Shown: one piece after another, positions 11,413 through 35,397 of the stretch | Position numbering within the stretch: position 1 is the first letter of the stretch | How the letters are laid out: each line of letters opens with the position of its first letter | Assembly (NCBI GenBank): GCA_017624835.1 | Contig: JAGAMG010000036.1 | Span: forward strand, 1-38,064 | Source: Lachnospiraceae bacterium | GTDB lineage: Bacteria; Bacillota; Clostridia; Lachnospirales; Lachnospiraceae | Length of the DNA: 38,064 nucleotides | Direction of reading: 5' to 3' | Position numbers and translations under genes: made by a program | The notes under the pieces: model-generated | Database searches by the model: none | Seen by the model: the letters and a program-made list of their open reading frames with translations, nothing else | What the model was told of the DNA's origin: nothing

Positions 11413-11868
11413 TTATCGAGATCCCGAGAGTTCCTTTACCCTGTGTACAGCTTGGGCAATTAGGGGTCTGAGAGGACGTAAAAGCAGCCAGATAGCAAAC
11501 AGGAATCGATATATGGGATTCCTCACATCAAAGTATTTTCCCTTTCTTTTGATTCCAATTAATTTCCCTTTTATCTGGGTTCTGTATATGGGACCTTCCG
11601 TTTCCTTTTGATTGTCCCCAACCATATAGAATTGATCCTCTTTCTTTTTCCAAATTCGGTGGAGCACCAAAATACTTTCTTTCCGGCGATATAAAACCAC
11701 ATCCCCTCTTTTTAAGACATCCTCTCCCACCGGCTTAATCACAGCAATATCCCTCCCGGGTACAAATAAGGGATACATACTGTAGCCTTGGGGCTGAATT
11801 TCCACGGTATTTCCTTCTGACAGGATTTTTTCTATCTCCACTTTGTTATCGTTTTTTTCTTTTGCCAT
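11413..11868 (-). CDS. S24/S26-family membrane peptidase (signal-peptidase-like)
   Basis: A 151-residue serine peptidase of the signal peptidase clan. The nucleophile is Ser30 in GYSMYPLF, the general-base position is His70 in LVLHRI (the Ser-His form seen in archaeal and ER-type enzymes rather than Ser-Lys), and VGDN is at 83-86. A hydrophobic segment near the C-terminus (about 118-135) should anchor it. No helix-turn-helix is present, so it is not a LexA-like repressor. The ATG at 11866-11868 has AAGGA eight bases upstream, while an ATG 18 bases earlier is poorly spaced. Such peptidases occur beside PqqD, HPr-kinase-like and ABC genes in RiPP clusters; a role in trimming the exported peptide is inferred. 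Confidence 0.8.
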   Translation of the reverse strand: MAKEKNDNKVEIEKILSEGNTVEIQPQGYSMYPLFVPGRDIAVIKPVGEDVLKRGDVVLYRRKESILVLHRIWKKKEDQFYMVGDNQKETEGPIYRTQIKGKLIGIKRKGKYFDVRNPIYRFLFAIWLLLRPLRPLIAQAVHRVKELSGSR

Positions 11869-11938
11869 ATATCTGTTCCTTCTCATTTTCCCTTATGATT
11901 TCGTCTCGGGTTAGTGAACACTCGGATTGATTTCACTC

Positions 11939-12118
11939 GCAAGCCCGTGCTTCGCACTCATTGTCTGCTTCGCAGACTGCTTGCTCGTTATCGCGGCTCG
12001 CGCTGGTAAACACTCGCAAAACCGCACTTCGTGCTTATTGTCTGCTACGCAGACGTTTTGCTCGTTATCGCGTGGAAAATCAAATGCCGCTTTGCGGCGC
12101 TTGATTTTCCCTCGCGTA
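11939..12118 (-). repeat. Structured leader element, copy A (hairpin plus two three-way-junction units)
   Basis: Read on the minus strand from just after the -10 box: TACGCGAG, a hairpin with 10-base arms (12101-12110 with 12074-12083) around a GCCGC/GCGGC inner stem, then CGCGATAACGA, then a junction unit in which GCAAAAC pairs with GTTTTGC (12055-12061, 12016-12022) around two small hairpins. A second CGCGATAACGA and a second unit with GCAAGC/GCTTGC (11979-11984, 11939-11944) follow. Stem sequences differ between units but still pair. It lies in the leader of the S26 peptidase and fills most of the 325-base gap 11869-12193. No protein is supported here. Confidence 0.75.
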
Positions 12119-12119
12119 C

Positions 12120-12152
12120 ATTGTAGCATTTCTATGTAAATAATGCTATAAT
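12120..12152. promoter_or_regulatory. Symmetrical divergent promoter for the S26 peptidase and the PqqD-kinase operon
   Basis: An imperfect palindrome of 11-base arms (12120-12130 and 12142-12152, 10 of 11 matching) carries an extended -10 box on each strand: TGC-TATAAT (12144-12152) to the right and TGC-TACAAT (12120-12128, minus strand) to the left. Both -35 hexamers are poor (TAGCAT), as expected for extended -10 promoters. The left transcript enters the structured element at once; the right one reaches the gene at 12194. Confidence 0.6.
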
Positions 12153-12193
12153 ACTTTTGTTTCGGTATTATTTTTAGTGGGAGGGAATCGCAA

Positions 12194-13366
12194 ATGAGAC
12201 GTAATTCATCCTTTACCTTGTGCTATTTGTCAGGTACCCCATATATCCTGCCCTATGGACAGCAAATTGCCAATCATAGGCGCGGTCTTCAAACCAATGC
12301 AACCGGTGCTTTTATATGGGATTTATTGGAAACAGAACAGAATTTTCAAAAACTTTTAAATTGCTGCGCTGTTCATTATCAGGCAGCTGCTCATGAACTC
12401 CCCCTTCTGGAAACGGACATAAAGCAATTTTTGACCCTGCTACAATCCTACGGAATGCTGGAGGACACCATCCCACAGAAGGCTTCTGATTCTTACCCTG
12501 ACAGTTTCCTGCAAATTGCAGGACTTACCCTGAAGCTGACCGGTCCCAAAGAGGCTTTTTCCGCTTCCTTTGACTCTTTTCGTATTTCGGATGCCTCCAC
12601 GATTCATCAGCAAATTGTGATACAGGAAAGCTCCTTTCTCCCCAAGCGTAACGGCACCATCCTGCTGCGTACCGAGGAGGTTATGATATTGGAGGATGAA
12701 GATATCTACATTCTCCTTTTTCCTTCTAACAATCAGCTTGTGGAAGCCCATTTATCCAAGGACGGCAAATTAGCAGTTTTTTATTGTCTTCCCCCCTATA
12801 CGGAGGAATTTCGTGAGGGCTTATTCCACGCCATCCGCTTTACCTTTTTATATTTAGCTCAGCTCCATCATATGGTTGCCATTCATTCCGCTTCCCTACT
12901 GTATCAGGAAAAGGCATGGCTTTTTTCCGGTCACTCCGGCTCCGGCAAATCCACCCATACAGGCTTTTGGAATACTACTCTGAAAACACCCATTCTGAAC
13001 GGAGATTTGAATCTCATTGCCTTTACAGACAAGGGATCTGTTATACACGGAATCCCCTGGTGCGGTACCTCCGGGATTGCCGATACCCAAAGTTACTCCT
13101 TAGGGGGTATTATTTTACTAAAAAAACATTATTTTGATTACATAGAAGATTTATCAGAAAGCAAGAAACAGCTCTATGTGCTGCAACGCTTTATTTCCCC
13201 CTCTTGGACTTTAAGCCAAATGCAGCAAAATTGTGATTTTTCCGCGAAAATTGCTTCCTCCTGCTTGGTCTGCCGTTACCACTGCACCAAGACTCCTGAA
13301 GCGGTTTCCCCGATAAAAAAGGAAATAGATACCTATCTGGAAGGATTCGTACAAAATGATAAATAG
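12194..13366 (+). CDS. PqqD-like / HPr-kinase-like fusion protein
   Basis: A 390-residue protein. Residues about 10-92 look like a PqqD or RiPP-recognition domain (ILPYGQ, NATGAFIWDLLE, DIKQFLTLLQSYG). From about 225 on it resembles HPr serine kinase: HSASL at 231-235, the P-loop GHSGSGKST at 246-254, NGD at 269-271 and GIPWCGTSG at 286-294. HPr-kinase homologues tailor some lasso peptides by phosphorylation, and PqqD domains deliver precursor peptides, so a precursor-modifying kinase is a good guess; the substrate is not shown. GGAGGG lies 8 bases before the ATG. The gene overlaps the ABC transporter gene by 11 bases, so the two are coupled. Bona fide HPr kinase of sugar catabolism is less likely given the context and the fusion. 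Confidence 0.8.
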   Translation: MRRNSSFTLCYLSGTPYILPYGQQIANHRRGLQTNATGAFIWDLLETEQNFQKLLNCCAVHYQAAAHELPLLETDIKQFLTLLQSYGMLEDTIPQKASDSYPDSFLQIAGLTLKLTGPKEAFSASFDSFRISDASTIHQQIVIQESSFLPKRNGTILLRTEEVMILEDEDIYILLFPSNNQLVEAHLSKDGKLAVFYCLPPYTEEFREGLFHAIRFTFLYLAQLHHMVAIHSASLLYQEKAWLFSGHSGSGKSTHTGFWNTTLKTPILNGDLNLIAFTDKGSVIHGIPWCGTSGIADTQSYSLGGIILLKKHYFDYIEDLSESKKQLYVLQRFISPSWTLSQMQQNCDFSAKIASSCLVCRYHCTKTPEAVSPIKKEIDTYLEGFVQNDK

Positions 13367-15122
13367 CATAAAACATATTATCAAGAGAATACAGGAAGGT
13401 ATCCTTCGTGATATCTTACGCGCCACCAAATGGATATACGGTTATGCACGCAACTATTGGTGGGCAATGATTTTTTACACCGCATTAGGCCTTTTTGGTA
13501 CCTTTATCTCCTTTGGCTCCAGTCTGATTTCCAAGGATCTGATTGATATTATTACCGGACAGGAAACCGGCGAGCTTGTGAAAACCTTCTGTATTATGAT
13601 GGGCTTTGGCATCGGTAATACCATTATCAATCAGCTTTGCAGCTATGCCTCCAATTGGATTAGCTTAAAAGTGGACAGCGAAATCAAATCCGATATTTTT
13701 GCAAAAATGCTGGTAACGGATTTGGAAGCCATCTCCCATTATCATACCGGCGATTTACTTACCCGATGGAATTCGGATGCCTCCAATATTTCCCAGGGTG
13801 TGCTTAGCTTTATTCCCAATTTTATTATTAATATCATAAAATTTATCGGTGCTTTTGCAATTGTCATCTATCACGATGCAACCTTTGCTTTTTTTGCCAT
13901 GCTAAGCATCCCCTTTACCCTGATTATGTCCCGTACCTTAACCATGAGAATGGTACAGAATAATAAACGCAGTGCTGCCATGAGTGCCAAAATGTCCGGC
14001 TTTAATCAAGAGGCTTTTTCCAATATCCAGACCATCAAAGCCTTTGATTTGATTTCCCTCTATATTAAGCATTTAAAACAATTGCAATCCGAATACATTA
14101 CCATGAAAATGGATTTTCAAAGAATGTCCATGTTTACTTCCATCTTAATGACCCTTTCCGGCCTACTGGTTTCCTACAGTTCCTATGGCTGGGGAATTTA
14201 CCGGGTTTACAGCGGAGCTATCAGCTATGGTACCATGACCCTCTTTCTTTCCATGTCCGGCACCTTGACCGGTACCGTGAATAGCCTTATCTCCCTGATT
14301 CCCACCGCCATCTCCCTTACCACCTCGGCAGGCAGATTAATGGATATTTTGGAAATGCCTCAGGAGGATTACAGTCAGGCGGAAGAAATCGATAGCTTTA
14401 TGAAGCAGTATCATCAGGAAGGCTTTTCCATAAAGCTTTCTCAAATTGATTATACCTATCAAACCGGAACAGAGGTTTTTCATGAAACCTCTCTGGAAGC
14501 ACATCCTCATGAGATTATTGCACTGGTAGGTCCCTCGGGAGAAGGCAAAACCACAATGCTCAGACTGCTCCTTGCTCTGTTGCGTCCTCAATCCGGTGAT
14601 GCCAGAATCCTTGCCCATTCAGACGATGACCAATATTATACGATTACTCCTGCAACCAGACGACTTTTTTCCTATGTGCCCCAAGGCAATACTATGTTTT
14701 CCGGCACCATTGCAGAAAATATGCGAAATGTAAAGCCGGATGCCACCGATGAAGAGATTATTACAGCTCTACAGCAGGCCTGTGCATGGGATTTTGTAGA
14801 AAAGCTGCCGGAGGGTATCAACAGCATGATTAAGGAGCGAGGGGGCGGTTTTTCAGAAGGACAGGCACAGCGCCTTTCCATTGCCAGAGCCTTGCTGCGT
14901 CGTTCCCCCATACTCTTATTGGATGAGGCAACCTCCGCATTGGATCACACTACCGAAAAGAAAATTTTACAAAACATCGCCAAGGACACCTACCCCAGAA
15001 CCTGTATTATTACTACTCACAGACCACACGTATTAACAATTTGTAATCGGGTTTATTCTATTCAGGACAAACAATGTGTTACCCTGACTTCTGAACAAAT
15101 TCAGGAAATGTTGAAGCCTTAG
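13356..15122 (+). CDS. ABC exporter, fused membrane and ATPase domains
   Basis: A 588-residue half-transporter: a six-helix membrane domain (about residues 35-320) and an ATPase with Walker A GPSGEGKTT at 392-400, a Q-loop in YVPQG near 440, the signature FSEGQ at 499-503 (variant of LSGGQ) and Walker B LLLDEATSALD at 520-530. There is no N-terminal C39 peptidase domain, so any leader must be removed by another enzyme, for example the S26 peptidase at 11413. It is coupled to the PqqD-kinase gene and convergent with the precursor-like gene. Export of a modified peptide or protein is the likely role; it would act as a homodimer. Confidence 0.88.
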   Translation: MINSIKHIIKRIQEGILRDILRATKWIYGYARNYWWAMIFYTALGLFGTFISFGSSLISKDLIDIITGQETGELVKTFCIMMGFGIGNTIINQLCSYASNWISLKVDSEIKSDIFAKMLVTDLEAISHYHTGDLLTRWNSDASNISQGVLSFIPNFIINIIKFIGAFAIVIYHDATFAFFAMLSIPFTLIMSRTLTMRMVQNNKRSAAMSAKMSGFNQEAFSNIQTIKAFDLISLYIKHLKQLQSEYITMKMDFQRMSMFTSILMTLSGLLVSYSSYGWGIYRVYSGAISYGTMTLFLSMSGTLTGTVNSLISLIPTAISLTTSAGRLMDILEMPQEDYSQAEEIDSFMKQYHQEGFSIKLSQIDYTYQTGTEVFHETSLEAHPHEIIALVGPSGEGKTTMLRLLLALLRPQSGDARILAHSDDDQYYTITPATRRLFSYVPQGNTMFSGTIAENMRNVKPDATDEEIITALQQACAWDFVEKLPEGINSMIKERGGGFSEGQAQRLSIARALLRRSPILLLDEATSALDHTTEKKILQNIAKDTYPRTCIITTHRPHVLTICNRVYSIQDKQCVTLTSEQIQEMLKP

Positions 15123-15149
15123 AGCAACTCACAGGCAGATTCATTCCAT

Positions 15150-15203: not shown

Positions 15204-15231
15204 ATGTAAATATCTTAACTATTCAATTATA

Positions 15232-15639
15232 TTAGTGCTGTCCGCAATCATGATTACAGTAAACTATAACATTGGTTAAAGCCAAACCTGCATCAGCTTC
15301 TACAATCACATCGCCTAACCCAATATTATCATTGCCATTATTATGATAGCCATATTCGATTTCAATGGTGTTTCCGGTACCTGTACCGCAGATGCTACCA
15401 TTGGAACTCTTATATACAACAGGCTGATTAAAGGTTAATGTTGCAATCTGACATCCACTATGATGACTATCTGTTGCCGCATGCTTCGCATTTAACTGAA
15501 TGCGGTAATCGCCACGTCCTGTCTCCGGTGTCTGGTGAATATAACCGGATGCGGTATAACAATCAGAACCGCTGGCAGCATATACACCTTCGGACAACTC
15601 TTCATTTTCCAATACAATAGGTTTTGCATACTCCTGCAT
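15232..15639 (-). CDS. Putative leader-bearing secreted protein or large RiPP-like precursor
   Basis: A 135-residue protein I cannot assign to a named family. Residues 1-24 look like a leader: charged and polar, with the NEELSEGVYAASG motif and no hydrophobic core, so not a Sec signal. The rest is a Gly/Asn/Thr/His-rich beta-type region with cysteines at 27, 63, 84, 128 and 132 and a CNHDCGQH end. V-Y-A fits the -3/-1 rule of signal-peptidase-type cleavage, and S-G at 23-24 could mimic a double-Gly site. GAGGGG precedes the ATG, and a strong promoter of its own lies at 15720-15748, so it is probably made in excess over the processing genes. The neighbours (PqqD-kinase, exporter, S26 peptidase, nucleotidyltransferase) support a processed, exported product. 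Confidence 0.65.
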   Translation of the reverse strand: MQEYAKPIVLENEELSEGVYAASGSDCYTASGYIHQTPETGRGDYRIQLNAKHAATDSHHSGCQIATLTFNQPVVYKSSNGSICGTGTGNTIEIEYGYHNNGNDNIGLGDVIVEADAGLALTNVIVYCNHDCGQH

Positions 15640-15719: not shown

Positions 15720-15748
15720 ATCATATTACATTTTTACGTCTGCGTCAA
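15720..15748 (-). promoter_or_regulatory. Promoter of the precursor-like gene
   Basis: TTGACG (15743-15748), 17 bases, TATGAT (15720-15725), giving a leader of roughly 75 bases with a GATATC-based small inverted repeat. The upstream operon has no clear terminator, so read-through is also possible. Confidence 0.75.
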
Positions 15749-15803: not shown

Positions 15804-18581
15804 TTATTTCCACAACCTTATCTGCATTAACAACCGGCTTCTCTGTCCCGCCTTTCTAAAAATAGAACCACTGGACACCTTCCGAATTTTTCGATTATTA
15901 CTCAGAAAGCGAACCAAGGTTATTATCCATAAAAGGGGCCATAATACACAGCATTTACCATACCTTGGGAAATTTAATCGCATTTGATGATGAAACTCTC
16001 TTACATATCCGCTGATTCCATTGCTTCTTAATACCACCATGCGGTCGGAATTTGATTTTCCGAATTCCTCCGCCTCCAGAATTTCTTTCATAAACTCTGT
16101 CAATTCATATTCTTTCCAGGGCTGCATCCACGCAACTGCATCCTTTTTCAAGCCCAGATAAGTACAACAAATTTGGGTTATCATATCGGAAAAGCCTCTG
16201 ATACCGCTCTCTTCTACCAGACAAAGATATTGTTCCTTGTAGGAATCCTCCATCTCCTGTTCCCAAAACACCACCCAGTCACATAGGAATCGCAAACCAA
16301 AACCGGAACGTAAAAAATGCTGTAGCATATGAAGCAACAATTCATAGGCATAAAAATCGGGAGACAGTACCGGAAGCTCCACCCCACAAACATCCTTCCT
16401 ACAAATCTTTTCTTTGCATTCTGACAGCTTATGTTCCATATATTTATTGATTTTCTCGTTATCAAAGGGTTCCGCCAGCATGGTATGCAATTCTATGTCA
16501 ATTCCTTCCGGAGAAATAAGAACCACATGATGAAGGGCGTACTGCCTTTCCTTAACAATACAGCCACAGTCCTCCAATACCTTACAGGCCAGCTCCGCCT
16601 TATTCTTATCAAGCAACAACAAATCCACATCCCCCGATTTGCGCAACTCCGGCTCCGGGTAATAGGATGCGGTTCCCACACCTTTTAATAAAACAACGGA
16701 TAAGCCTGCTGCTTCCAATTTTTCTATCATATACTTACTGTGAAACAGCAGATGGTAACATTGCATAGCAGATTTTTTTGCCGCCTTCTGCGCTTCCTCC
16801 CGTAGTTTTGCACTTTCCGCCAAATGTTCGGGAATCTCACGATATAGCAATGAGAGCACTCCATGGGCGGCAGCAGTCATTTTAAGCTTCTCCCATTGAA
16901 TGTAAGAAGCTCCTTCTCTCATTGCTTCCTTCAATTCATTTCTCTCTTTCTGTACGCCTTCCCCCTGTAATGCATTACAAAGCATTGCCAATAAATACAT
17001 CTCTTCCTGATTTACAGTATTCCTTTGTTTTCTCTCCTTTGTTTCTCCAAACGAAAGCTTCTTACGCAGCAACTCCAACGCCTTGTACCATAACAATCTA
17101 AATTCCTTTGTGCGACAATAGAGCACCAGATAAACCAAATTCGTTATGAAAAAACAAACCACAAAACGTCCAAAACAGCAAAACCACAAACTACCGGTAA
17201 TCCTTTGACATAATTGGTCTTCCCCATACCAAAGCAATGCTGTTACACCTGCATACACCCCATATTTTGCAAAATAAGAACCAACCCTTGCTTCCAACCG
17301 ATATTTGTACAAAATATAAGGTTCCACCCATAAGGAGGTGGTTACCGTACTAATCAAGGTTCCCAGGAAGATACCAAAAGTCCCCATTACGGTTCCCAAT
17401 ATCAAGGAGCTTATCAGATTAATCAACGCCTCCACCAGGGACTTATGCCTGTCATACCAGAAAAGACCCAAAGAGTCTCGAAAAACCAAGGTTGCCTGAC
17501 GCATTCCCACAACATAAAAATTAATGCACAAAATCAAGGTTACTTCCTTGGGAAACACATAACCTGCTCCAAAGCTGATTTCCACAAAGGCATCCAGTAC
17601 TTCATAGAGACAGATGGCAGACAAGCCAAACATCCATTGTCCGATAAAAAAGGACGCCGTAAAAATCCTTTTTATCCGCTCCTTGCTCTCCTCCACTCCC
17701 AGATTGCCTACGCTGGCAGTAATCCCCTGAAACATCTGATTCAATACCTGACGTACCGAGCCGATAATCAAAAAGTAATTGGAATATCTGCTGACACTTC
17801 CGATTCCCACAAGGGAAGATAACAGCAGATTATCCGTATTATTTACAATCACATTTCCGATTTTGTGCATCAGCATTGCACGTACATTCTGATAAATACT
17901 GCTCTTTTCTGTTTTGGATAAGGGAACTACATCTCTTTCCTTCAAATAAGGATACATCCGGTCTGCTTTTAATGAAACGCACAAATTATTGGCGATGGTA
18001 CATCCAATCATAATTGCCACAAACAAAATAAAATTTCTGGTAAAATAAAGCACTCCCATCTGCAACACATTTTGCAGCAGCAAAAAAAAGGTCTGATAAA
18101 GCACACCGATATAGCTTAGCTGATGTGCTTCTATTAAGGTTTTCTTATAAATAAACAGATAGGACAACACCGAATTAAATAAATACATCAGGTAAATCAA
18201 TATCAGATGTTCAACCGCAGGCTGGTTTCTGATGAGAATATCCATAAAGGGAATTACTGCCAGACCGGCAATTAGCACAATCACAGCGATTCCTCTATAA
18301 AATTGCTGATACAGCTTCATCAGGGATTTCTGCTTTTCCACATCCTTTTCCGATATGGGTTTATACAAAGCATAGGTAATGGCAGTACCCACCCCCAGTT
18401 CAGAAAGCGCCAACACATTTAATATATCTGTAAACAGACCGTTAATTCCCACATAATCCTCACTTAAGGTATGTGTAAAAACGACCCTTGTAATAAAACC
18501 TGCCAAAATAGCAGCAACTCTTGCTACCATCGCCACGGTAGTATTCTTCGCCGAATACTCCGTCCTGCTTTTTTCTATCAC
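15804..18581 (-). CDS. Wzx/MATE-like flippase fused to an NTP_transf_5 nucleotidyltransferase
   Basis: A 925-residue two-part protein. Residues 1 to about 505 form a polysaccharide-type flippase (12-14 helices, starting TEYSAKNTTVAMVARV), expected to move lipid-linked glycans across the membrane. Residues about 535-880 match the family of uncharacterised nucleotidyltransferases (PF14907), with VVLLKG near 630 and the nucleotide/metal motif KSGDVDLLL near 650, then IELH. Such nucleotidyltransferases are frequent in lasso and other RiPP clusters. The GTG at 18579-18581 is chosen because GGAGGA lies 6 bases before it; the GTG 24 bases earlier, which would overlap the Stealth stop, has no ribosome binding site. 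It is the last gene of the long operon. The fusion joins polysaccharide export to a peptide-cluster enzyme. Confidence 0.82.
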   Translation of the reverse strand: MIEKSRTEYSAKNTTVAMVARVAAILAGFITRVVFTHTLSEDYVGINGLFTDILNVLALSELGVGTAITYALYKPISEKDVEKQKSLMKLYQQFYRGIAVIVLIAGLAVIPFMDILIRNQPAVEHLILIYLMYLFNSVLSYLFIYKKTLIEAHQLSYIGVLYQTFFLLLQNVLQMGVLYFTRNFILFVAIMIGCTIANNLCVSLKADRMYPYLKERDVVPLSKTEKSSIYQNVRAMLMHKIGNVIVNNTDNLLLSSLVGIGSVSRYSNYFLIIGSVRQVLNQMFQGITASVGNLGVEESKERIKRIFTASFFIGQWMFGLSAICLYEVLDAFVEISFGAGYVFPKEVTLILCINFYVVGMRQATLVFRDSLGLFWYDRHKSLVEALINLISSLILGTVMGTFGIFLGTLISTVTTSLWVEPYILYKYRLEARVGSYFAKYGVYAGVTALLWYGEDQLCQRITGSLWFCCFGRFVVCFFITNLVYLVLYCRTKEFRLLWYKALELLRKKLSFGETKERKQRNTVNQEEMYLLAMLCNALQGEGVQKERNELKEAMREGASYIQWEKLKMTAAAHGVLSLLYREIPEHLAESAKLREEAQKAAKKSAMQCYHLLFHSKYMIEKLEAAGLSVVLLKGVGTASYYPEPELRKSGDVDLLLLDKNKAELACKVLEDCGCIVKERQYALHHVVLISPEGIDIELHTMLAEPFDNEKINKYMEHKLSECKEKICRKDVCGVELPVLSPDFYAYELLLHMLQHFLRSGFGLRFLCDWVVFWEQEMEDSYKEQYLCLVEESGIRGFSDMITQICCTYLGLKKDAVAWMQPWKEYELTEFMKEILEAEEFGKSNSDRMVVLRSNGISGYVREFHHQMRLNFPRYGKCCVLWPLLWIITLVRFLSNNRKIRKVSSGSIFRKAGQRSRLLMQIRLWK

Positions 18582-18601
18582 GCCTTGTCCTCCATCAGCT
18601 T

Positions 18602-25687: not shown

Positions 25688-25714
25688 AATACCCACCTTT
25701 TCTTTTGTAACACC

Positions 25715-26914: not shown

Positions 26915-27303
26915 ACTGCATCCTGCCCTTTGTTTTCCTTTTCCAAAAGTGTTTCAAGCTGTCTGCGCATTTCTTCCGTCTCCTGATTCAATAAGGAAAC
27001 CTGCATTGCCAGCTCATGATTTCTTCTCATAAGCTCCGATACTCTGGCAGACATAAACAGCATTCCGTATACCACACAAAAGGCTATCATAAGTCCCAGT
27101 AAAAGACCGGTTCCACTAATATAACGATTCCACACAACGGGTCTAAGCAATAATCCTGCCAGCACAATAATCACACTGATAACGCCCCAGGTCAAACAAA
27201 AGGGTTCCGTCATCTTCCGTTTTGCCAATGAGGAAACCACATAGGCAAACAGCATAATTCCTACTACCACCATTATAATTCGAAGTAATGCTCCCGGTTC
27301 CAT
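26911..27303 (-). CDS. DUF2304 membrane protein
   Basis: A 130-residue protein with three membrane helices (about residues 5-22, 33-52, 64-84) and a C-terminal coiled coil (about 88-125, NHELAMQVSLLNQETEEM). DUF2304 proteins are small partners of polyprenyl-phosphate glycosyltransferases and often sit next to GT2 genes, as here with the gene at 24905. AGGAGG precedes the ATG; it follows pelG by 3 bases. Confidence 0.72.
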   Translation of the reverse strand: MEPGALLRIIMVVVGIMLFAYVVSSLAKRKMTEPFCLTWGVISVIIVLAGLLLRPVVWNRYISGTGLLLGLMIAFCVVYGMLFMSARVSELMRRNHELAMQVSLLNQETEEMRRQLETLLEKENKGQDAV

Positions 27304-27306
27304 ATC

Positions 27307-28785
27307 TTATCTCCTCCTTTTCTTGACCTTTTCCTGTTCCAATATACTCTGCTTGACATAGACTCTGTTAGAGGGACGCTTTCCCACTCCACGCTTCATA
27401 ATATTTCCTTCACAGAATATATGAATATCCAAATGCTTTTCAATCCGTCTTAGTCTGTAATAAGCCACACTCCAGCCCGCGTAGGCGCCCATAACCAATC
27501 CCAGACCATACCATATGGTAGGCAGACGTGAGGATAGAATACTGCCCAGATACGTAACTGTCACAAAACAAAGGGAAGTCCAGACAGCACCATCCAAATC
27601 ATTATAATAATACTGAAAAATAATAGCAGCATACATCACAAAAAGAATAAAATATCCGGCTGCCAGGCAGGGATATATCTTCATCACGTTGCCTCCCAAT
27701 CCAAATCTGGGCAACACAATAATACATACAAAAAACAATAATATAGATACAATGAACTGAATCCGTACAAGACTCATCAATTCTTCCGTAAGCTGCGTAA
27801 ACATCCTTTTCTTGGTGTTTTCAATATCAATTCCCCTACCACCGATTACCGCTTCCGAGTAAGCCTTATAACGATCATGGAAATTCATTTCCACTCTGGA
27901 AATAAATATAACGCTGGCAGAAATGTTTGTAAACATAGCGATACAGGATGCCATGTCATAGTTGGGCATACATACAAAGCTGTCCGCTACCACCATTTTC
28001 ATATCCGTGGACCAGAATACAAAATTATGTACATACAATCCTACACTGTATAAAAAGTTTGCCACTACCAATTTCCAATACTTTTTAAAGTACTGTAAAA
28101 CTGCCTTATATTTACCACTGTTTTCTCTAAAATAGCCTTTAAACTGTGCAAATTCCAAAACTCCGATTAATACAAAGCCCGCATCCATTGCAATCAGCAT
28201 TGCATAAATAATATCCATCTGAAATCCATATACGAAAATCACGGACAAAAGAATGGTGAAAATCATACCAATCCCAAAAAACAAGGATATTTTTTTATAA
28301 TCCTTACAAATGGACAGATACAGCATGGAATAAAACACCAAAGTCAAACTCATGTATCCACAATATCCGGCAAAAACAAAGAGGATATCCACACCGCCCA
28401 CCACATATTCCCATACACAGAAGGGAATACCTATCACACAGCTAAAGCCCACATTCAAAAGCAAGCCCACATAATAACAGGGAACAATATCTTCAAACCG
28501 CTCTTCATAAATGGTATCCGACATATATCTGGAAAGTACCGCATTAAAGGGGGAAGCTGTCAAAAGAGAAAATACAAAGGTATACAGCAGAGTACAGGAA
28601 AAAAGCTCCCTTCTTGCATAATCCAGCTTGGTAAAGCCCAATAGCTGCTGCATTAAAAGTACCGTAATAATAACAGCAAGCATGGGGGCAACCGTGATTA
28701 CAATACTGTAAAAAAAGCCTACCAAATGAGTGGTAATTGTCTGCTTTTCAAATATTCTGTTAAGTCTTACACCAATTCCTGCCAT
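27307..28785 (-). CDS. pelG: PelG-type exopolysaccharide transporter
   Basis: A 492-residue, roughly 12-helix membrane protein of the PelG family (MVF/MOP superfamily). The N-terminus MAGIGVRLNRIFEKQT and the region LLTASPFNAVLSRYMSDTIYEE are characteristic. In Pel synthesis PelG, with PelD and PelE, forms the inner-membrane complex that receives and moves the polymer made by PelF. AAGGAGA precedes the ATG, and pelF lies 9 bases upstream. The C-terminus is basic (KVKKRRR). Confidence 0.92.
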   Translation of the reverse strand: MAGIGVRLNRIFEKQTITTHLVGFFYSIVITVAPMLAVIITVLLMQQLLGFTKLDYARRELFSCTLLYTFVFSLLTASPFNAVLSRYMSDTIYEERFEDIVPCYYVGLLLNVGFSCVIGIPFCVWEYVVGGVDILFVFAGYCGYMSLTLVFYSMLYLSICKDYKKISLFFGIGMIFTILLSVIFVYGFQMDIIYAMLIAMDAGFVLIGVLEFAQFKGYFRENSGKYKAVLQYFKKYWKLVVANFLYSVGLYVHNFVFWSTDMKMVVADSFVCMPNYDMASCIAMFTNISASVIFISRVEMNFHDRYKAYSEAVIGGRGIDIENTKKRMFTQLTEELMSLVRIQFIVSILLFFVCIIVLPRFGLGGNVMKIYPCLAAGYFILFVMYAAIIFQYYYNDLDGAVWTSLCFVTVTYLGSILSSRLPTIWYGLGLVMGAYAGWSVAYYRLRRIEKHLDIHIFCEGNIMKRGVGKRPSNRVYVKQSILEQEKVKKRRR

Positions 28786-28794: not shown

Positions 28795-30228
28795 TTACAT
28801 AACATCATACCCGTATTCTCTGCCCAGTTCATTATAGATTTCCTCGTAAGCAGCCTTCATTTGTTGAATACGATATTTCTTATTTACACGGCGATAACCG
28901 CATTCTCCCATTTCCAATCTTTGTTGTTTGGATCTGCTCATTTCCAATATAGCAGCGGACAACTCACCTACATTCATAATATGGGTAAGAATCCCTGCTG
29001 TTCCGCATCCGTCATTTACTCCATAAATCAGTTCGCGACAATTACCTACATCGGTGGCAATTACCGGTTTGTGAGCGGCATAGCTTTCTAAGATGGTCAG
29101 AGGCTGCCCCTCACTGATACTGGTCAAAATAGTGAAATCCATCCTGCCCAGATACTCTCTGATATCCACTCTGCCGGTAAAAATTACATCCTTTACCTGC
29201 AATGCTTCCACCAAATCAAAGCATTCCTTTGCGTAAGCCTCATCCTCATCGCAGGGTCCCATAATCCAAAGCTTCAAATGATGATTTTCTTCCTTGGCAA
29301 AGGAAAACGCTCGAATCATGGTTTTTACATCCTTGATGGGGGACACTCTGAGCACCGCTCCGATGTTGATGTAGCCCTCATCCTCTTCAGTCTTCCCGGG
29401 CAGATTTGCCAGACGCTCCACATCGATTCCATTGGGCGTGACTCTGGTCTTTTCTTCCAAACACCCCATTCCAATCTGCAATTCCCTGGCATGCTCAAAG
29501 AGACTTGTTACAATATCCGCTCTTTCATAGGCAAGGGTGGACATTTTATGGAACTGCTCAATCCAGATATTTTTATAGAGTCCCTTTACCCAAGTTGCCT
29601 TCAAAAGCTCCTCTTCTCTCTCTCTGGTATAAATTCCATGCTCCGAAATCAAAAGCCAGCTGTTATACTGCTTTTGGGCCATGCTTCCCAATACTCCTGC
29701 ATAGCCGGTAGCCACACAATGATAGATATCAGCCTTAGGCATGGGGGTTTTCAAGATTAAAAATAAGGGCAGATAAATGGAACGCATGGTCCACAAAAAA
29801 TCGGAAAAAGTAATATAGGGATATTTCTGCTGATACACTTCCTTTACAATGGAAAAGAAATCTGCTCCCATAAGTAAGTCATCAATGGAAAATTTACCCT
29901 TTTGAAACATTTCAAAAATGGTATCCCAATCCACATTCTCATTGATAACCATACTTTTTAAAGCATTATATTCCCTGACCTTAAGCTTTGTCCTTTTTCC
30001 GTGCTTTGGTTTATGTCCCCAATCATAATCATCCAGATAGGCTTCATAAACCTCTACCAGATTGTCCGGCAGTTCATACACAAATTTTCCGCTTTGGGAG
30101 CGATTTGCAACAATCGCCGTTACTACAAACTCTATGTCCGGAAAGGATTTTATCATACTATGTATCCAACTGGATACGCCGCCTACCACATAGGGATAGC
30201 AACCCTCGGCAATCAGACATACTCTCAT
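28795..30228 (-). CDS. pelF: PelF-type family 4 glycosyltransferase
   Basis: A 477-residue cytoplasmic glycosyltransferase, the Pel polymerase that uses UDP-linked N-acetylhexosamines. It starts MRVCLIAEGCYPYVVGGVSS, with the PelF-typical GGVSSWIHSMI, and has ISEHGIYTRERE in the middle and SISEGQPLTILESYAAHKP with the donor-binding glutamates near the C-terminus. Length and order (pelF directly before pelG) match known Pel loci. Ribosome binding site AAAGGAA. Confidence 0.93.
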   Translation of the reverse strand: MRVCLIAEGCYPYVVGGVSSWIHSMIKSFPDIEFVVTAIVANRSQSGKFVYELPDNLVEVYEAYLDDYDWGHKPKHGKRTKLKVREYNALKSMVINENVDWDTIFEMFQKGKFSIDDLLMGADFFSIVKEVYQQKYPYITFSDFLWTMRSIYLPLFLILKTPMPKADIYHCVATGYAGVLGSMAQKQYNSWLLISEHGIYTREREEELLKATWVKGLYKNIWIEQFHKMSTLAYERADIVTSLFEHARELQIGMGCLEEKTRVTPNGIDVERLANLPGKTEEDEGYINIGAVLRVSPIKDVKTMIRAFSFAKEENHHLKLWIMGPCDEDEAYAKECFDLVEALQVKDVIFTGRVDIREYLGRMDFTILTSISEGQPLTILESYAAHKPVIATDVGNCRELIYGVNDGCGTAGILTHIMNVGELSAAILEMSRSKQQRLEMGECGYRRVNKKYRIQQMKAAYEEIYNELGREYGYDVM

Positions 30229-30243
30229 ATACGTTCCTTTCTA

Positions 30244-32022
30244 TTACTCTAACTGAATTTCCACATTTTCAGAATATATCTGCAAAAGATAAATGTCATC
30301 TTCCAGCATTTGATAATCCGCTCCCTTCACTGCAACTACACTTTCTCCATGAGTACGCAGCAGAAACCAGCTCTGCTCTCCATGATTTTTAAGCTTCATA
30401 TAGATGGTATTACCATCCCGTATCTGTGAATATTGTAAATTCAAAAAGCTACGAAGTCTCTTATCACTTTCCAGCAATGTGGTATTATCAAACTTTCTGT
30501 TCTGCTTCCAATAAATACTGATATTACTGAACACCTCATCAGAATAATTTTCCCATTGGTCTTCCTTTAATTCCGGCCATAATACTCGTTCTGCATCCAA
30601 CATAAAATTGGAATATCCCAAAGCCGTTTCCAAGCTTCTGTACTGCAATTCCTGAGAAAAGGTATACTGTTTTGCATCTCCGGTAATTCCCTGCAATGTT
30701 ACTCCTGCATTGTAAAATGCCAGCAGCGGGTATTTCGTTCCCTGCTGATAGGCAATGGTTCTGATTCCCTGTAGGGCGGGATTCTGTCCCACCACCTGTT
30801 CAAGTTCCTCCGACGAAGCCTCTTCCATGTAGCAGGAAGCATATTTATACCGATTCTCTATCAAATCAAAAAAGGCTTTATCCCGACTTATTTTTTCAGT
30901 AATGGGTACCTGCTTCCAATTGGCAAGACTCATTCCGGCTTCCCCGTCAATTTCCTTCATTTGCTGTAAATAAAATACATAATCCGCTTCATCCGGTTCT
31001 ATTTCATCCAGATAATCAAATTGGGGAGTCAGCATAAAGGTTAATTTTAAATTCCTTTTTTCTGCCAATGCCACAATTCCCGGCCACACAATATCCCGTT
31101 CAAAGGACTTTGTATCTCGACTGTATAATTCAAAGATTCTTTCCTCATTTTCCCTTGCAAAGGAAGGATAATTAGTAACAATAACACTTTCAGCATTCAC
31201 AACAGGATATAAAGTATAGTCCCTTAGCTCATGCACAAAGGCATCCAAGATACCGATTCCTGTGAGAGTGGACATATAATCCCCATTTACCGCAAATACA
31301 AAGGAATTTTCCACATGATTTCTCCATAAACATGCCGGAAACTCTTCCCTGGGCACCTGTTCCTCATCCAACATTCCAACCATATATACCTTGGTTCCTG
31401 CATCCATGGAAAACCAGGGCATATTTAATTTCAAATCCTGCTTCTCCAAATCTTCTTCTTTTTCTGCTTTTAAAATAAGCTCTCCTCCCAAAAAGAAGCC
31501 GGAATAAACCTGCAATCCTTCCACGGCGGTATTCTCACTAATTATCTCTGAGATTCCAAGCAACTCTCGCAGCTTTTCATTTTTCTCTATCACGGAGATA
31601 TCCGGCAGATTACAAAACACTACCGGGATTCCCTGCAAAGTGATATCCTCTATCAAAGAAGTTTCCTTCTCAAAGTCAACATGCCCTGCATCTAATAAAA
31701 ATAATTCCGGTACCTTCTCTGTTAGTTTTTTCAGCTCTGTTTCTTCAGGAATCCGGGCACTGGAAATGTACTCCCTCTTCGTGTAAGTACACCATTGGGA
31801 CACCACCTTTGCGATTGCACTTTCCTTATCGCCCACATAAACAATTTTTTCTCTTTCTGTCGGACCATCCAATATAATATTTTCCGGTACATCAGAATAT
31901 TCAACCTGCTCATTTATATTATACTCATTCTCATGCTCTACAAAAACCTGCAGAAACTGAAACATAAACAGCAGTATTATCATTATAACGCTAATACTTA
32001 GAAAGTTTTTATAGGATACCAT
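30244..32022 (-). CDS. PelA-like / DUF2194 membrane-anchored extracellular protein
   Basis: A 592-residue protein with one N-terminal membrane anchor (about residues 8-28) and a large extracellular part. Its place between PelE and PelF is that of the deacetylase PelA in Gram-positive Pel operons, and the fold features (FAVNGDYMSTLTG, VTNYPSFARENEE, TFMLTPQFDYL) fit a deformed polysaccharide-deacetylase-like barrel (DUF2194). I do not see the Asp-Asp-His-His metal and catalytic set of active carbohydrate esterases: an Asn stands before the Gly-Asp, and a Tyr is where HP is expected. It may therefore be a non-catalytic polymer-binding subunit. No glycosidase domain is fused to it. AGAGGG precedes the ATG. 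Confidence 0.65.
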   Translation of the reverse strand: MVSYKNFLSISVIMIILLFMFQFLQVFVEHENEYNINEQVEYSDVPENIILDGPTEREKIVYVGDKESAIAKVVSQWCTYTKREYISSARIPEETELKKLTEKVPELFLLDAGHVDFEKETSLIEDITLQGIPVVFCNLPDISVIEKNEKLRELLGISEIISENTAVEGLQVYSGFFLGGELILKAEKEEDLEKQDLKLNMPWFSMDAGTKVYMVGMLDEEQVPREEFPACLWRNHVENSFVFAVNGDYMSTLTGIGILDAFVHELRDYTLYPVVNAESVIVTNYPSFARENEERIFELYSRDTKSFERDIVWPGIVALAEKRNLKLTFMLTPQFDYLDEIEPDEADYVFYLQQMKEIDGEAGMSLANWKQVPITEKISRDKAFFDLIENRYKYASCYMEEASSEELEQVVGQNPALQGIRTIAYQQGTKYPLLAFYNAGVTLQGITGDAKQYTFSQELQYRSLETALGYSNFMLDAERVLWPELKEDQWENYSDEVFSNISIYWKQNRKFDNTTLLESDKRLRSFLNLQYSQIRDGNTIYMKLKNHGEQSWFLLRTHGESVVAVKGADYQMLEDDIYLLQIYSENVEIQLE

Positions 32023-32034
32023 TCTTTTCCCTCT

Positions 32035-32937
32035 TTAACTAAATACACGAATCAGCTCCAGTGTTTCACTGTCAATTACCACAGGGGACTTCTTTAATTG
32101 CTCCAAAACCTCAAAGAATCGTTTTTTATCCCCCTTATTAAAATATAATTTTAGCTGACTGGAATAAGTTGACAGAGTATTGGGGAAATGATATTCCGCT
32201 CTCTCACACCACTTTTTGCATAAATCATACTCTTCCATTTCCAACAGTCTTATGCTGATTGCCTCATAATGATTGCTTGTCAGATAGGCACTGTTATTGG
32301 TATACATAAGCTCACATACTTCATCCATCAGCAAAGTATATCTTCTTTGCTCCATCTCTGAAAAAACCTTTTGCTCCAATACCTGATTCATATACTCCAC
32401 CAATGCATTGGCACAGGAAAGCATTTCCTTTCCCCCTGCCAATATCATGGTATATTGCTTTTCCACATAAATACGAAACTTATTTAATTCTGTTTGCAAA
32501 ACACTGGCTGCATAATGTGCTACTTCTGTATCCTCACTATTCAGTGCCAGAGAAATCGCTGCCAGGGATTTTTGAATATCCCCTCTTACTACATTCATCA
32601 TAAGACTACGCAGCTCTTCTTTTTCCGTAACCTCAATGGCCTCCTCCAGGGGAACAATATTACGCTCTCTTTCCTCATCCGCATGTACAAACATTTTCTT
32701 TCGTTCCTTGCTAAAGATAACATCAGCCAAATCCACAGGTTTTGAAAAAAATATTCTCAGACAAACCGCGGAAAGCAGAAAGAAGGAAATCCCCACCACA
32801 GGGCAGAAAAGCATTACAAGTCCACATATTACCATGCTTCTTCGATTGCTTTTCTTATCACATATTTTCCATACAAAATATAATGCCACCAGTATTGTAT
32901 TGATTATTACAATACCCAGAAACAGCTTCATTTGCAT
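32035..32937 (-). CDS. pelE: PelE-like membrane protein with helical repeats
   Basis: A 300-residue protein: two or three N-terminal membrane helices (about residues 3-60) and a cytoplasmic all-helical region with TPR-like character (LEMEEYDLCKKWCERAEYHFP, LKLYFNKGDKKRFFEVLEQL). PelE links PelD to the synthase and exporter in the inner-membrane complex. The ATG at 32935-32937 is preferred because GGAGAAG lies 7 bases upstream and it starts just after the PelD stop; an ATG 30 bases earlier has no site. Family assignment rests on topology and position. Confidence 0.72.
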   Translation of the reverse strand: MQMKLFLGIVIINTILVALYFVWKICDKKSNRRSMVICGLVMLFCPVVGISFFLLSAVCLRIFFSKPVDLADVIFSKERKKMFVHADEERERNIVPLEEAIEVTEKEELRSLMMNVVRGDIQKSLAAISLALNSEDTEVAHYAASVLQTELNKFRIYVEKQYTMILAGGKEMLSCANALVEYMNQVLEQKVFSEMEQRRYTLLMDEVCELMYTNNSAYLTSNHYEAISIRLLEMEEYDLCKKWCERAEYHFPNTLSTYSSQLKLYFNKGDKKRFFEVLEQLKKSPVVIDSETLELIRVFS

Positions 32938-32939
32938 TC

Positions 32940-35117
32940 TTATACTTCTCCGTTTCCTACAATACAACTGTTATAACCGACCTCTGCAAATCGTCCGATT
33001 ACATATTGGGCATCCTCATCATCCGTATTGGACAAAAGAGCATAGAGTTCTCCATCCTCCAAGGTTCCCATATAATCCGATTGTCGCAGCTTCTCAATCA
33101 ATACAGGAGCCACCTTCATATAATCCTCCTGATGGGTTTCGATATGTAACACGGTACATTCCGTAAGTCCTTTGTCCCTGGCTGACAGATAAGCCCTTAA
33201 CAACGAAGTAAAGGCTTCTGTTTCCATAATCTGAGTTCCCTCTACATAACGCTGATTTTCCAACACGGACATATATCGGTTTGCTCGAAGCACCGCATTC
33301 TGTATCAGGGAACTAATGATAACCAGCTGATTTGCCTGTCCCAGAGTCATATTCTCCCAGGAAATTCCCCAAATCATAATCATCATTTCCATTTTATCAT
33401 TTTCAAAAATGGCATTTGCCATAAGTGGATATCGCTCATCCATTTTACGATTAATATAAACCTTCTGTTGGGACAACTGCTCATACACTTCCCCCATTTG
33501 GGTATATTGTATGGATTTCCCTAACATTCTCGCCTTTTTGGAGGTGGAGGAGAATAGTCTTGCATAGGCTGAATTGGATATGGTGTAAATTGCCACATCC
33601 TTACTTTTGGTTAAGGTTGCCACGATTTCCGCAGCATAAAACAGCACCTCATCAGGACTGTACTGCTCCAAAGCAGAGGTAATACTGTAAATCTTACCCA
33701 CACTGTCATTCTGATTCACAATTTGCGTTTCCAGCGCATCCTTAACCCGGACATTACTGTTATTAATATCCTGAATATCGGAAAGCTGCATCTCCAAAAA
33801 TTCCTGTTCCTGCTCATTCTCCTTCTGCATCTGCCGGATTCTGTCCCTCATATATCCCACAGTCAATCCCAAAATAAATAATTGGGCTATCCACACATAA
33901 GTATTGGTATCCAGCATAACTTCAAAACCGGTTCTGTCATAGGTCTGCCTGAAATAGAAACCTGCCACCGCCAATATAGCAGAAATACATGCCTGCTGCT
34001 GACCATATACGATGGCAAATAATAATACATATAATAAATAAAAATCCAATCTGGCAAAATGCTCGCTGCCTGCCGCACGATTGTTTAACATAAAAAACGG
34101 AATGAAAGCAATCAAATTTTCCACAAAAGGAACCATCGCCCGTAAAAGCCAGCCTATCTTTTTGAAAACTCTCTCCTTTAAGGGCACCTCCGCTACTTTG
34201 TTTCTCTTAAACAGATGCTGATTCTTTTTCATACTGTCAATGACCTTTTGAACAATCATCTGCTCCTCACAAAATCGTGGATTTCCAAATTCACTTTCAT
34301 ATAACACATTAGATAATACTCTTCTTGACTTTTCTGCCGGCAGGGTAATGATTTCCACATCTTCCTTCACTTCTTTTTTTATCATTTCTGCCAATTGCAA
34401 GCCGGTAATCTCCCTGGAAGAAGAAATATTATAAGTAAAGCTTAAGGAATTTCTATTCACCATGACCCTATATATTGCCTCTATGGCATCCGTTTCATAA
34501 AGCAGGGAAAATGTATTGTTGTCCTGCACTGTAATCTTGTGACTTTCCAAGGCTTCCAGACACATTTTACTACAGATATCATTCACATTTCTTCTTTCCC
34601 TTGGGATACTGTATAAGGTATCCAGACGCAAAACCATAATATCCTTTTTCAGGTTATTTCTATAGCTGTCACACAACTCCTCCGATTGGGCAAATACCAT
34701 GCCACGTATATCCGATGGGTCAAAGGAATCATATTCCAGAATATCCTCTGTATGCTTATTATTATACACCTCTGCAGAGGATAAATAGATGAACCTTCCT
34801 CTTCCACCCTCCGCATAGCTCATTAAAAGATTCATCAGATTTGTGGAATATTTAACAGCCTCCGCCGAAGCCTGAATCCAATGGTAATTGGTATCGAAGG
34901 CTCCCATAAATATGGTTACATCCGGGCGCACACTTGCAAACACCTCTGCCAGACAGTTGCTGTCATAGGTAAAATTATACTTTTCAAAAACCTTTTGATA
35001 GGGCATTCTGTCAAATCTGCTTCCTGTCAGCAGACAGACTCTATGCCCTTCTTTTTTCAACTTTATTATTAAATTATTAATTAATGTTCCTGCCCCACCA
35101 ATTAACAATACATTCAT
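32940..35117 (-). CDS. pelD: PelD-like c-di-GMP receptor with a fused, degenerate NAD-epimerase domain
   Basis: A 725-residue protein. Residues 1 to about 300 are an extended SDR/epimerase fold (LIGGAG at 5-10, YLSSAEVY at 111-118), but the catalytic Tyr-x3-Lys is Phe142-x3-Glu146 and the third glycine of the nucleotide motif is lost, so catalysis is unlikely. About four membrane helices (320-425), a coiled coil (428-460), a GAF domain (about 475-615) and a degenerate GGDEF domain (620-725) follow, the order found in PelD. The GGDEF active site is EDGE (687-690), while the inhibitory c-di-GMP site RQSD (Arg678, Asp681) is kept with the normal 5-residue spacing. So it should bind c-di-GMP and switch on polymer synthesis, not make the signal. 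Confidence 0.85.
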   Translation of the reverse strand: MNVLLIGGAGTLINNLIIKLKKEGHRVCLLTGSRFDRMPYQKVFEKYNFTYDSNCLAEVFASVRPDVTIFMGAFDTNYHWIQASAEAVKYSTNLMNLLMSYAEGGRGRFIYLSSAEVYNNKHTEDILEYDSFDPSDIRGMVFAQSEELCDSYRNNLKKDIMVLRLDTLYSIPRERRNVNDICSKMCLEALESHKITVQDNNTFSLLYETDAIEAIYRVMVNRNSLSFTYNISSSREITGLQLAEMIKKEVKEDVEIITLPAEKSRRVLSNVLYESEFGNPRFCEEQMIVQKVIDSMKKNQHLFKRNKVAEVPLKERVFKKIGWLLRAMVPFVENLIAFIPFFMLNNRAAGSEHFARLDFYLLYVLLFAIVYGQQQACISAILAVAGFYFRQTYDRTGFEVMLDTNTYVWIAQLFILGLTVGYMRDRIRQMQKENEQEQEFLEMQLSDIQDINNSNVRVKDALETQIVNQNDSVGKIYSITSALEQYSPDEVLFYAAEIVATLTKSKDVAIYTISNSAYARLFSSTSKKARMLGKSIQYTQMGEVYEQLSQQKVYINRKMDERYPLMANAIFENDKMEMMIMIWGISWENMTLGQANQLVIISSLIQNAVLRANRYMSVLENQRYVEGTQIMETEAFTSLLRAYLSARDKGLTECTVLHIETHQEDYMKVAPVLIEKLRQSDYMGTLEDGELYALLSNTDDEDAQYVIGRFAEVGYNSCIVGNGEV

Positions 35118-35133
35118 TGCATTTCCTCTCTTA

Positions 35134-35397
35134 TTAACGAACTACACCGGCATCTGCCAACTGCTTCTGAAAGCTCATTACATCTTCCAAAATCATTTCC
35201 GGACTCACTCCATAGCTTGCAGACAAAGTCTTTGCAATGGCTTCGTTCTCTTTATCTTCCTGCATCAGATTCCAGATTTGGGCACCCATTTCATTTATGG
35301 CAATGGGCTTTTTGTATGGCACTCCCGGTTGCTGCATATCCAATAGCCAGTACATGCCGGCAGCATGCCTTAATTGATATCGCTGTTTATTATTCAT
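35134..35397 (-). CDS. PqqD-family peptide-chaperone-like protein
   Basis: An 87-residue stand-alone PqqD-like protein: PIAINEMGAQIWNLM, then AIAKTLSASYGVS and a helix DVMSFQKQLADAG, the normal form of the family. PqqD proteins bind leader peptides and hand them to modifying enzymes in RiPP pathways. It is the first gene of the long polysaccharide operon, far from the precursor-like gene, and starts 16 bases before pelD. The ATG at 35395-35397 has GAGGG eight bases upstream; a TTG 15 bases earlier is not favoured. Its promoter and leader carry the structured element copy B. Confidence 0.82.
   Translation of the reverse strand: MNNKQRYQLRHAAGMYWLLDMQQPGVPYKKPIAINEMGAQIWNLMQEDKENEAIAKTLSASYGVSPEMILEDVMSFQKQLADAGVVR

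Follow-up and report, generated by a model that had tools for sequence, protein, structure and literature searches.

The window, by which we mean the whole stretch of 38,064 nucleotides that was analysed, carries a pel operon of Gram-positive type, whose first gene encodes a PqqD/RRE protein and whose last encodes a flippase–NTP_transf_5 fusion. The 14 genes from the RRE to the fusion all lie on the minus strand and, by their ORF coordinates, overlap or are separated by gaps of at most 18 bp:

35134..35397, minus strand: discrete RRE (PqqD-like), LppB-like, first gene of the Pel operon (PF05402, E = 8.8e-12)
32940..35117, minus strand: PelD-like protein with an epimerase-like N terminus, a transmembrane region and a C terminus with RxxD (PF01370, 60 bits)
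32035..32967, minus strand: PelE-like protein (position and conservation in relatives)
30244..32022, minus strand: PelA-like protein, DUF2194 (PF09960, 2.8e-16)
28795..30228, minus strand: PelF glycosyltransferase (DUF3492, 1.1e-79, and Glycos_transf_1)
27307..28785, minus strand: PelG (PF16933, 492 bits)
26911..27303, minus strand: DUF2304 membrane protein (PF10066)
25715..26914, minus strand: group-1 glycosyltransferase (PF00534, 2.2e-32)
24905..25696, minus strand: family-2 glycosyltransferase (PF00535, 3.3e-17)
23587..24924, minus strand: first of two DUF4874/DUF4832 proteins (Pfam)
21122..23569, minus strand: large protein with multiple transmembrane segments, as read from its sequence
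19599..21125, minus strand: second DUF4874/DUF4832 protein (Pfam)
18602..19606, minus strand: Stealth protein (PF11380, 2.1e-45)
15804..18605, minus strand: flippase fused to NTP_transf_5, an LppN/PsmN-like domain (PF14907, 1.5e-34, residues 569–817)

An earlier note on this DNA had placed a PqqD gene at the head of an operon making PelD, PelE, a PelA-like protein, PelF and PelG, and a nucleotidyltransferase on the flippase that ends it. Both placements held, with the Pel genes downstream of the RRE on the same strand and PF14907 scoring 120 bits in the fusion against a cut-off of 31.2. The flippase half gave a weak O-unit flippase-like match (E = 0.00027), and the K-G and G-D-x-D motif residues of NTP_transf_5 were invariant in 16 sequences. 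The PF05402 scan of the RRE was run from a longer TTG start, and phmmer matched the RRE to TbiB1 (5v1u; E = 0.0013), which we take to be a lasso-peptide RRE. An alternative ATG start of the RRE is present at 35397.

In the PelD-like protein, R678 and D681 of the RxxD were invariant in 19/19 aligned PelD sequences, and the motif is read as a predicted c-di-GMP I-site; Pfam returned a DUF4118 match below its cut-off and no GAF domain. The PelE-like protein, named from its position and relatives, had nothing over the Pfam cut-off. For the deacetylase domain of the PelA-like protein, Pfam gave DUF2194 only, and no histidine fell in columns at least 90% conserved among 19 sequences. The large protein at 21122..23569 had no Pfam match and has similar proteins in the Pel operons of relatives, and the Stealth protein is presumably of the sugar-phosphate transferase type. 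An Rfam scan of the window found neither a c-di-GMP riboswitch nor any other RNA at gathering score.

Beyond the fusion lie genes resembling those of a RiPP pathway:

15720..15748, minus strand: promoter-like site of the precursor, TTGACG-17-TATGAT (motif match)
15232..15639, minus strand: precursor, LppA-like, with leader MQEYAKPIVLENEELSEGVYAASG and a predicted β-sandwich core (20-sequence alignment, AF2 model, fold comparison)
13356..15122, plus strand: MsbA-like ABC exporter, LppD-like (PF00664 and PF00005, ABC_membrane and ABC_tran)
12194..13366, plus strand: RRE–HPrK-like kinase fusion, LppK-like (PF05402, 1.3e-6, for the RRE half)
11413..11886, minus strand: archaeal/SipW-type S26 signal peptidase (SpI), LppS-like leader peptidase (TIGR02228, 1e-10)

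The precursor-like gene, PqqD–HPr-kinase fusion, ABC exporter and S26-type peptidase reported earlier were all recovered, the HPrK half with only a weak match to TIGR04352 (E = 0.003, far below cut-off) together with kinase-type motif residues (H231, P-loop K252 and D271) invariant in 21 sequences. An HPr-rel-A system, the subject of TIGR04352, was dropped at so distant a score. The exporter's best NCBIfam match, MsbA_rel, was below cut-off, and no peptidase domain was found in it. For SpI, TIGR02228 was the best NCBIfam match but fell below its equivalog cut-off, with the SipW model second; S36, H76 and D91 were invariant in 20 sequences. A 5′ element common to both RRE genes was considered as a joint regulator and set aside as a dispersed repeat, matched at 23 places in the genome, at some of them only by fragments.

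The precursor starts 164 bp beyond the fusion gene, behind the promoter-like site; such a site (at least 10/12 within 250 bp) was present for 10 of 20 precursor homologues, the window included, compared with 4.6% of base-shuffled controls. The precursor ORF had no Pfam or NCBIfam match, and a search by sequence for solved relatives gave a single match at E = 0.66. A similarity search returned 26 matches in 23 genomes, and 20 homologues were aligned after very divergent or short matches (L019 and L022–L026) were left out. All 20 carry a YxxPxVL-type leader in which Y4 and P7 are invariant. From a wider collection of 116 ORFs, two of which were dropped as spurious before counting, YxxPx12[YFM]x[AGS]S fitted 110/114 leaders, a conservation partly built in by a selection pattern that needed aromatic-xxP and a small end residue. 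That selection pattern had no match in precursor-less Pel loci totalling 397 kb and two in 675 kb of base-shuffled sequence; there were 26 matches in the unshuffled loci L027–L066, three of these (loci or matches) being precursor-free, a term that here means without a match to the precursor profile used, which other core types could escape.

Grouping of the cores by single-linkage of blastp matches placed several unrelated cores behind one leader, with the junction serine (A-A-S-G) kept on them. One kind carries a CBM2 domain, and a sibling core (L018:932–1351) matched PF00553 (CBM2) over Pfam's cut-off. The window core is a β-sandwich in its AF2 model, with CBM2 domains as nearest neighbours in the fold comparison, and for both modelled core types the same CBM2 chain was the first-ranked solved neighbour. 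The two modelled cores are predicted to be folded domains of about 100–110 amino acids, not short peptides.

Across genomes, the precursor and Pel co-occurred near-strictly. In a family sample of 298 genomes the precursor was found in 16 (14 genera) and PelG over cut-off in 50, including 16/16 precursor genomes; in a same-genus sample of 61 genomes the numbers were 23 and 27, including 23/23, with a few precursor matches in both samples being weak and resting mainly on the leader (G033, G056 and G057 in the genus; for example G174 and G275 in the family). PelG was present in only 4/38 genus genomes without precursor. Precursor and PelG shared a contig in 15/16 family genomes, their starts 6.8–28.5 kb apart, and PelG was found in 41/42 genomes of the named loci, some of which overlap with the two samples. 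The hosts are mainly recorded as Lachnospiraceae, nearly all with PelG.

PqqD alone was dropped as a Pel marker: some PqqD match occurs in 153/298 family genomes, so only its position counts. At least six genera have an RRE 0–85 bp in front of pelD, and so do the three draft genomes described below. In the genus sample, 20/23 precursor-positive genomes had an RRE upstream of PelG on the same strand, compared with 0/4 precursor-negative PelG genomes, and none of 13 pelD 5′ ends from precursor-free genomes had an RRE ahead of it. An SpI–RRE–pelD run recurs in five distinct genomes, including Eubacterium plexicaudatum ASF492 and Roseburia porci. We also looked for the arrangement that would separate the two sets of genes, with Pel and peptide genes independent and the pqqD and nucleotidyltransferase parts absent from the operon; three draft genomes carry the precursor module on a separate contig, but have both modules, and the RRE still heads their Pel operon. 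The arrangement recurs in related genomes, and the earlier claim of a connection between peptide genes and Pel operon is supported.

Lasso clusters of the paeninodin/pseudomycoidin type contain an RRE and an exporter. Both are shared with this locus (PMC13381572), as are an HPrK-like kinase and a nucleotidyltransferase (PMC9266682), whereas the precursor here is, in its model, a folded protein. A lasso cluster was rejected, since, as had been noted from the start, neither a macrolactam cyclase nor a B2 protease was matched by Pfam among the 20 window ORFs. Closer than the lasso cluster is the linear polyphosphorylated peptide (LPP) RiPP pathway (Popov et al., May 2026, PMC13381572), in which an HprK-like kinase (poly)phosphorylates a serine and leader cleavage falls to a SipW-like peptidase; the earlier suggestion of a new modification is not supported. 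Locus and LPP pathway share a discrete RRE, an NTP transferase, a SipW-type SpI, an MsbA-like exporter, a YxxPxVL leader and a polysaccharide-gene neighbourhood, and the candidate counterpart of the LPP kinase is the RRE–HPrK-like fusion, with its weak TIGR04352 match. Unlike in the LPP clusters described there, the RRE and nucleotidyltransferase here are members of the pel operon, the kinase carries its own RRE, and the two modelled cores are predicted folded β-sandwiches, one kind CBM2-like. The published motif Px9Fx[T/A] fitted 0/114 leaders, and because this cleavage motif is absent we call the locus LPP-like and do not file it as an LPP member. The role of LPPs is unknown according to their authors, who link them to biofilms in speculation only, and Pel, Lachnospir, Clostridia and carbohydrate-binding have no match in that main text (PMC13381572).

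The operon also shares an epimerase-like PelD N terminus, PelE, PelA-like, PelF, PelG and DUF4832, a known Pel accessory gene, with the Gram-positive pelDEADAFG operon (Whitfield et al. 2020, PMC7112168), but differs from it in the leading RRE, the flippase–nucleotidyltransferase, Stealth, further glycosyltransferases and a PelA-like protein without a conserved histidine. According to the same paper, Roseburia pel genes sit inside a larger capsule/teichoic-type cluster; its main text does not mention PqqD. Apart from the general polysaccharide neighbourhoods in PMC13381572, no Pel–RiPP link appeared in the titles and abstract starts of the literature matches listed. The chemistry, with its LPP pathway parts, is not wholly new; the tie to Pel looks new.

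From the genes present, the conserved catalytic-type residues, the conservation of the leader, the predicted fold class of the core and the near-strict co-occurrence, we consider it likely that the locus works as a single system, an LPP-like route for maturing and exporting a small folded carbohydrate-binding-type protein for a Pel-like exopolysaccharide. On the best reading, its product is a matrix protein of carbohydrate-binding type that is exported, probably carries a phospho-modification and is probably under c-di-GMP control. In these gut and rumen bacteria, Pel genes are interwoven with genes that have probable roles in recognising, phosphorylating, trimming and exporting a small sugar-binding-like protein, an arrangement suggesting that protein and polymer are meant to function jointly. 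In the mechanism we propose, the RRE heading the pel operon, that of the kinase, or both would bind the YxxPxVL leader, and the HPrK-like kinase would phosphorylate the conserved serine of the A-A-S-G junction, by analogy with what is published on LPPs and pseudomycoidin. The NTP_transf_5 domain, which its fusion to the flippase would keep at the membrane, may add a sugar or nucleotide to the phosphoserine, sugar transfer being suggested by the same analogy, as is removal of the leader by the SipW-type peptidase; the MsbA-like pump would export the protein. Outside the cell the β-sandwich core, probably closed by a C27–C128 disulfide, would act alongside the Pel-like polymer as a protein of the matrix or the cell surface, and c-di-GMP on PelD would set polymer output. 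Because the operon is shared, we propose that maturation of the protein is coupled to production of the polymer.

Mere neighbourhood could also bring together two separate surface systems in one hot spot, the peptide genes being independent, for example a bacteriocin-like RiPP. In Bacilli, LPP clusters are often found in capsular loci, for reasons their authors do not know (PMC13381572), the window precursor has a promoter-like site of its own, and the operon includes neither the kinase nor the peptidase. We nevertheless think this very unlikely given PelG in every precursor genome of the family sample, a pairing that holds with the modules on different contigs, and an RRE that sits within the pel operon yet is missing ahead of all 13 precursor-free pelD 5′ ends and upstream of PelG in all four precursor-free genus genomes.

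Two further readings were weighed. In the first, leader, RRE, SpI and ABC pump might be a private secretion route for an unmodified carbohydrate-binding protein, with kinase and nucleotidyltransferase acting elsewhere, for example on the polymer's lipid or sugar carrier. The predicted folded cores would suit such a route, and in the published host no effect of LppN was seen (PMC13381572), but the reading seems doubtful beside a junction serine kept on unrelated cores, invariant kinase and nucleotidyltransferase motif residues, and a published LPP kinase that acts on the precursor and aids cleavage (PMC13381572). In the second, a link made through the nucleotidyltransferase, perhaps with Stealth, might join the phosphoserine to a primer sugar or to the Pel-like polymer, the protein capping or anchoring the polymer. 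PsmN of the pseudomycoidin cluster is required for hexose addition to phosphoserine (PMC9266682), and the nucleotidyltransferase here is fused to the flippase and adjoins Stealth; however, several relatives encode it separately, Stealth was not seen in all operons, and PsmN may only nucleotidylate, a host enzyme then adding the sugar (PMC9266682). We regard such a conjugate as unlikely, and equally so its fuller form, in which interchangeable carbohydrate-binding proteins would be phosphorylated, glycosylated and so covalently joined to a Pel-like polymer under c-di-GMP control; such a leader-guided conjugate system would supply the LPP family's missing function.

For the favoured reading, LPP-like maturation of a protein that serves the Pel-like polymer, the near-absolute genome-level tie to Pel and the placement of the recognition protein within the pel operon make the question of LPP function directly testable. 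The data further suggest that RiPP-type leaders may be used for folded matrix proteins, and that gut Lachnospiraceae often pair Pel with a protein dedicated to it. The records of Eubacterium plexicaudatum ASF492 and Roseburia porci (strain MUC/MUC-530-WT-4D) carry the system, and both, being cultured commensals, are possible cultured carriers for its study.

All genes named by the earlier note, which had proposed a single hybrid peptide–polysaccharide system with RiPP-type genes interleaved in a Pel-like operon, are present in the window, the kinase being assigned from a weak profile match and motif residues. The operon is a minus-strand run of 14 genes that either overlap or lie no more than 18 bp apart, and a terminator-like hairpin (35580-35615) lies upstream of it at the rpoC end:

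35397 to 15804, minus strand: PqqD-like RRE gene, PelD, PelE, PelA-like, PelF, PelG, DUF2304, two glycosyltransferases, two DUF4874/DUF4832 proteins, a multi-TM protein, Stealth and a flippase–NTP_transf_5 (NTPt) fusion
15232-15639, minus strand: precursor of 135 aa, beyond the fusion, with its own promoter-like site
12194-15122: convergent pair of kinase and MsbA-like ABC exporter
11413-11886: signal peptidase (SpI)

On the far side of SpI (1485-11309) are genes including a large PTPS_related membrane protein (8781-11309). A repeat of about 110 nt occurs upstream of each RRE gene (11931-12116 and 35415-35530); because it has 23 matches in the genome, some only pieces, we rejected it as a joint regulator and regard it as a dispersed element.

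The precursor and PelG occur together far beyond the window. In a set of 99 relatives, 61 from the genus and 38 from elsewhere in the order, 23 have the precursor and 27 have PelG above cut-off, all within the genus, with the 27 including all 23 (Fisher p = 5e-13 for the 61 genus genomes, a value too good because the genomes are related). Across 298 genomes drawn evenly from the family, which record names suggest is Lachnospiraceae, the precursor profile matched 16, from 14 genera, and all 16 were among the 50 with PelG above cut-off (p = 4e-14, too good for the same reason). The two genes share a contig in 15 of the 16, their starts 6.8-28.5 kb apart, and lie on separate contigs in the remaining one (G115). 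As 34 of the 50 PelG-positive genomes carry Pel alone, Pel can exist without the precursor protein, but the protein hardly exists without Pel in these samples; one draft genome (G415) is an exception.

The RRE follows the same pattern. Within the genus it lies upstream of PelG on the same strand in 20 of 23 precursor genomes, counting G010, where the operon is rearranged and the RRE is 18 kb away, and in none of four precursor-free PelG genomes; in the other three precursor genomes (G001, G029, G033), the PelG contig lacks an RRE. Measured between ends of tblastn matches, an RRE lies 0-85 bp ahead of pelD (16 bp in the window) at 23 of the 41 pelD 5' ends listed in the retrieved loci, representing at least six genera; two of these loci, L096 and L184, are apparently one genome. 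By tblastn, no RRE lies directly ahead at 18 ends, 13 from precursor-free genomes and five from precursor genomes (L052 = G010, L081, L171 = G119, L172 = G131 and L176 = G198), although the PqqD profile nonetheless places one 41 bp ahead in G198 and about 0.5 kb ahead in G119. Five distinct genomes, Eubacterium plexicaudatum ASF492 (L080) and Roseburia porci (L091) among them, have SpI immediately upstream of RRE–pelD, and a record named Thermoclostridium (L190) has the order SpI–RRE–NTPt–PelDEAFG. One of 20 retrieved Pel loci from precursor-free genomes, that of G123, has a distant RRE–SpI–HPrK-like–ABC set behind PelG; the set (L154 14718-18022) lies just behind that Pel operon, and no YxxP precursor is evident in the part of the locus listed.

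Such pairing could reflect hitch-hiking of neighbours. In three draft genomes, however, the precursor–ABC–kinase module lies on another contig, well inside its ends (L117, L104, L076), and the Pel operon still begins RRE–pelD (L187-L189); two of the three also have NTPt there, and one shows the beginning of SpI. These drafts may be mis-binned, but persistence of the pairing without linkage argues for a functional tie over hitch-hiking.

In named genomes, 112 precursor loci were confirmed by scanning, and 80 of them were retained. Within the retrieved flanks, many of them truncated, the precursor is accompanied by ABC at at least 75 of the 80, kinase at at least 66, SpI at at least 58 and NTPt at at least 54; a core pel gene is present at at least 25, and some gene similar to the window pel operon, glycosyltransferases counted, at at least 52. 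Whole-genome searches for 42 loci (L081 and 41 of the 55 whose flanks show no core pel gene) found PelG in 41 of 42 genomes; the 42 overlap in part with the family sample. The precursor also occurs in records labelled Thermoclostridium, Coriobacteriales and Gastranaerophilales (L116, L122, L073), which may reflect transfer or mis-binning.

The peptide genes match the gene list of the linear polyphosphorylated peptide (LPP) pathway (PMC13381572): SpI, RRE, HprK-like kinase, NTP transferase, MsbA-like pump and YxxPxVL precursor. In that study, the kinase adds one to four phosphates to Ser3 of the core, SpI cuts the leader aided by the RRE, and removal of the NTP transferase LppN caused no change in the host used. 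Its homologue PsmN is required for hexoses on phospho-Ser in the pseudomycoidin lasso pathway (PMC9266682). The window-type leader differs from the published one, with Px9Fx[T/A] in 0 of 114 and 110 of 114 fitting a version about three residues longer; we therefore call the system LPP-like rather than an LPP member. By analogy, its chemistry would be a variant of the known pathway. Among genus homologues passing length filters, candidate catalytic residues are invariant in SpI (S36/H76/D91, 20 sequences), the kinase (H231/K252/D271, 21) and NTPt (K-G and G-D-x-D, 16). The kinase (12194-13366) has its own RRE domain besides the free RRE, and the two may serve one leader or two precursor kinds.

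On the Pel side, PelD R678..D681 is invariant in 19 sequences filtered likewise. The PelA-like protein (30244-32022) matches DUF2194 and keeps no His across 19 relatives, making a classical deacetylase role doubtful; the polymer may be other than de-acetylated Pel.

On the simplest interpretation, the pel operon would encode the polymer machinery together with two parts, RRE and NTPt, of a machine maturing an exported protein, the remaining parts being encoded next to the operon. The proposed steps of phosphorylation, sugar transfer and leader cleavage are modelled on the published relatives. Co-occurrence with Pel and CBM-like cores suggest a matrix role for the protein; covalent linkage to the polymer would be a guess. 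Among the literature matches listed, none reports the union with Pel or the set of folded, carbohydrate-binding-type cores, which to that extent are unpublished; the chemistry itself would be a variant of a known one. Second precursors with the same leader and other cores adjoin the main one at four loci (L015 971-1366, L018 932-1351, L012 1891-2265, L009 950-1369), a pattern resembling the swapping or stacking of cores.
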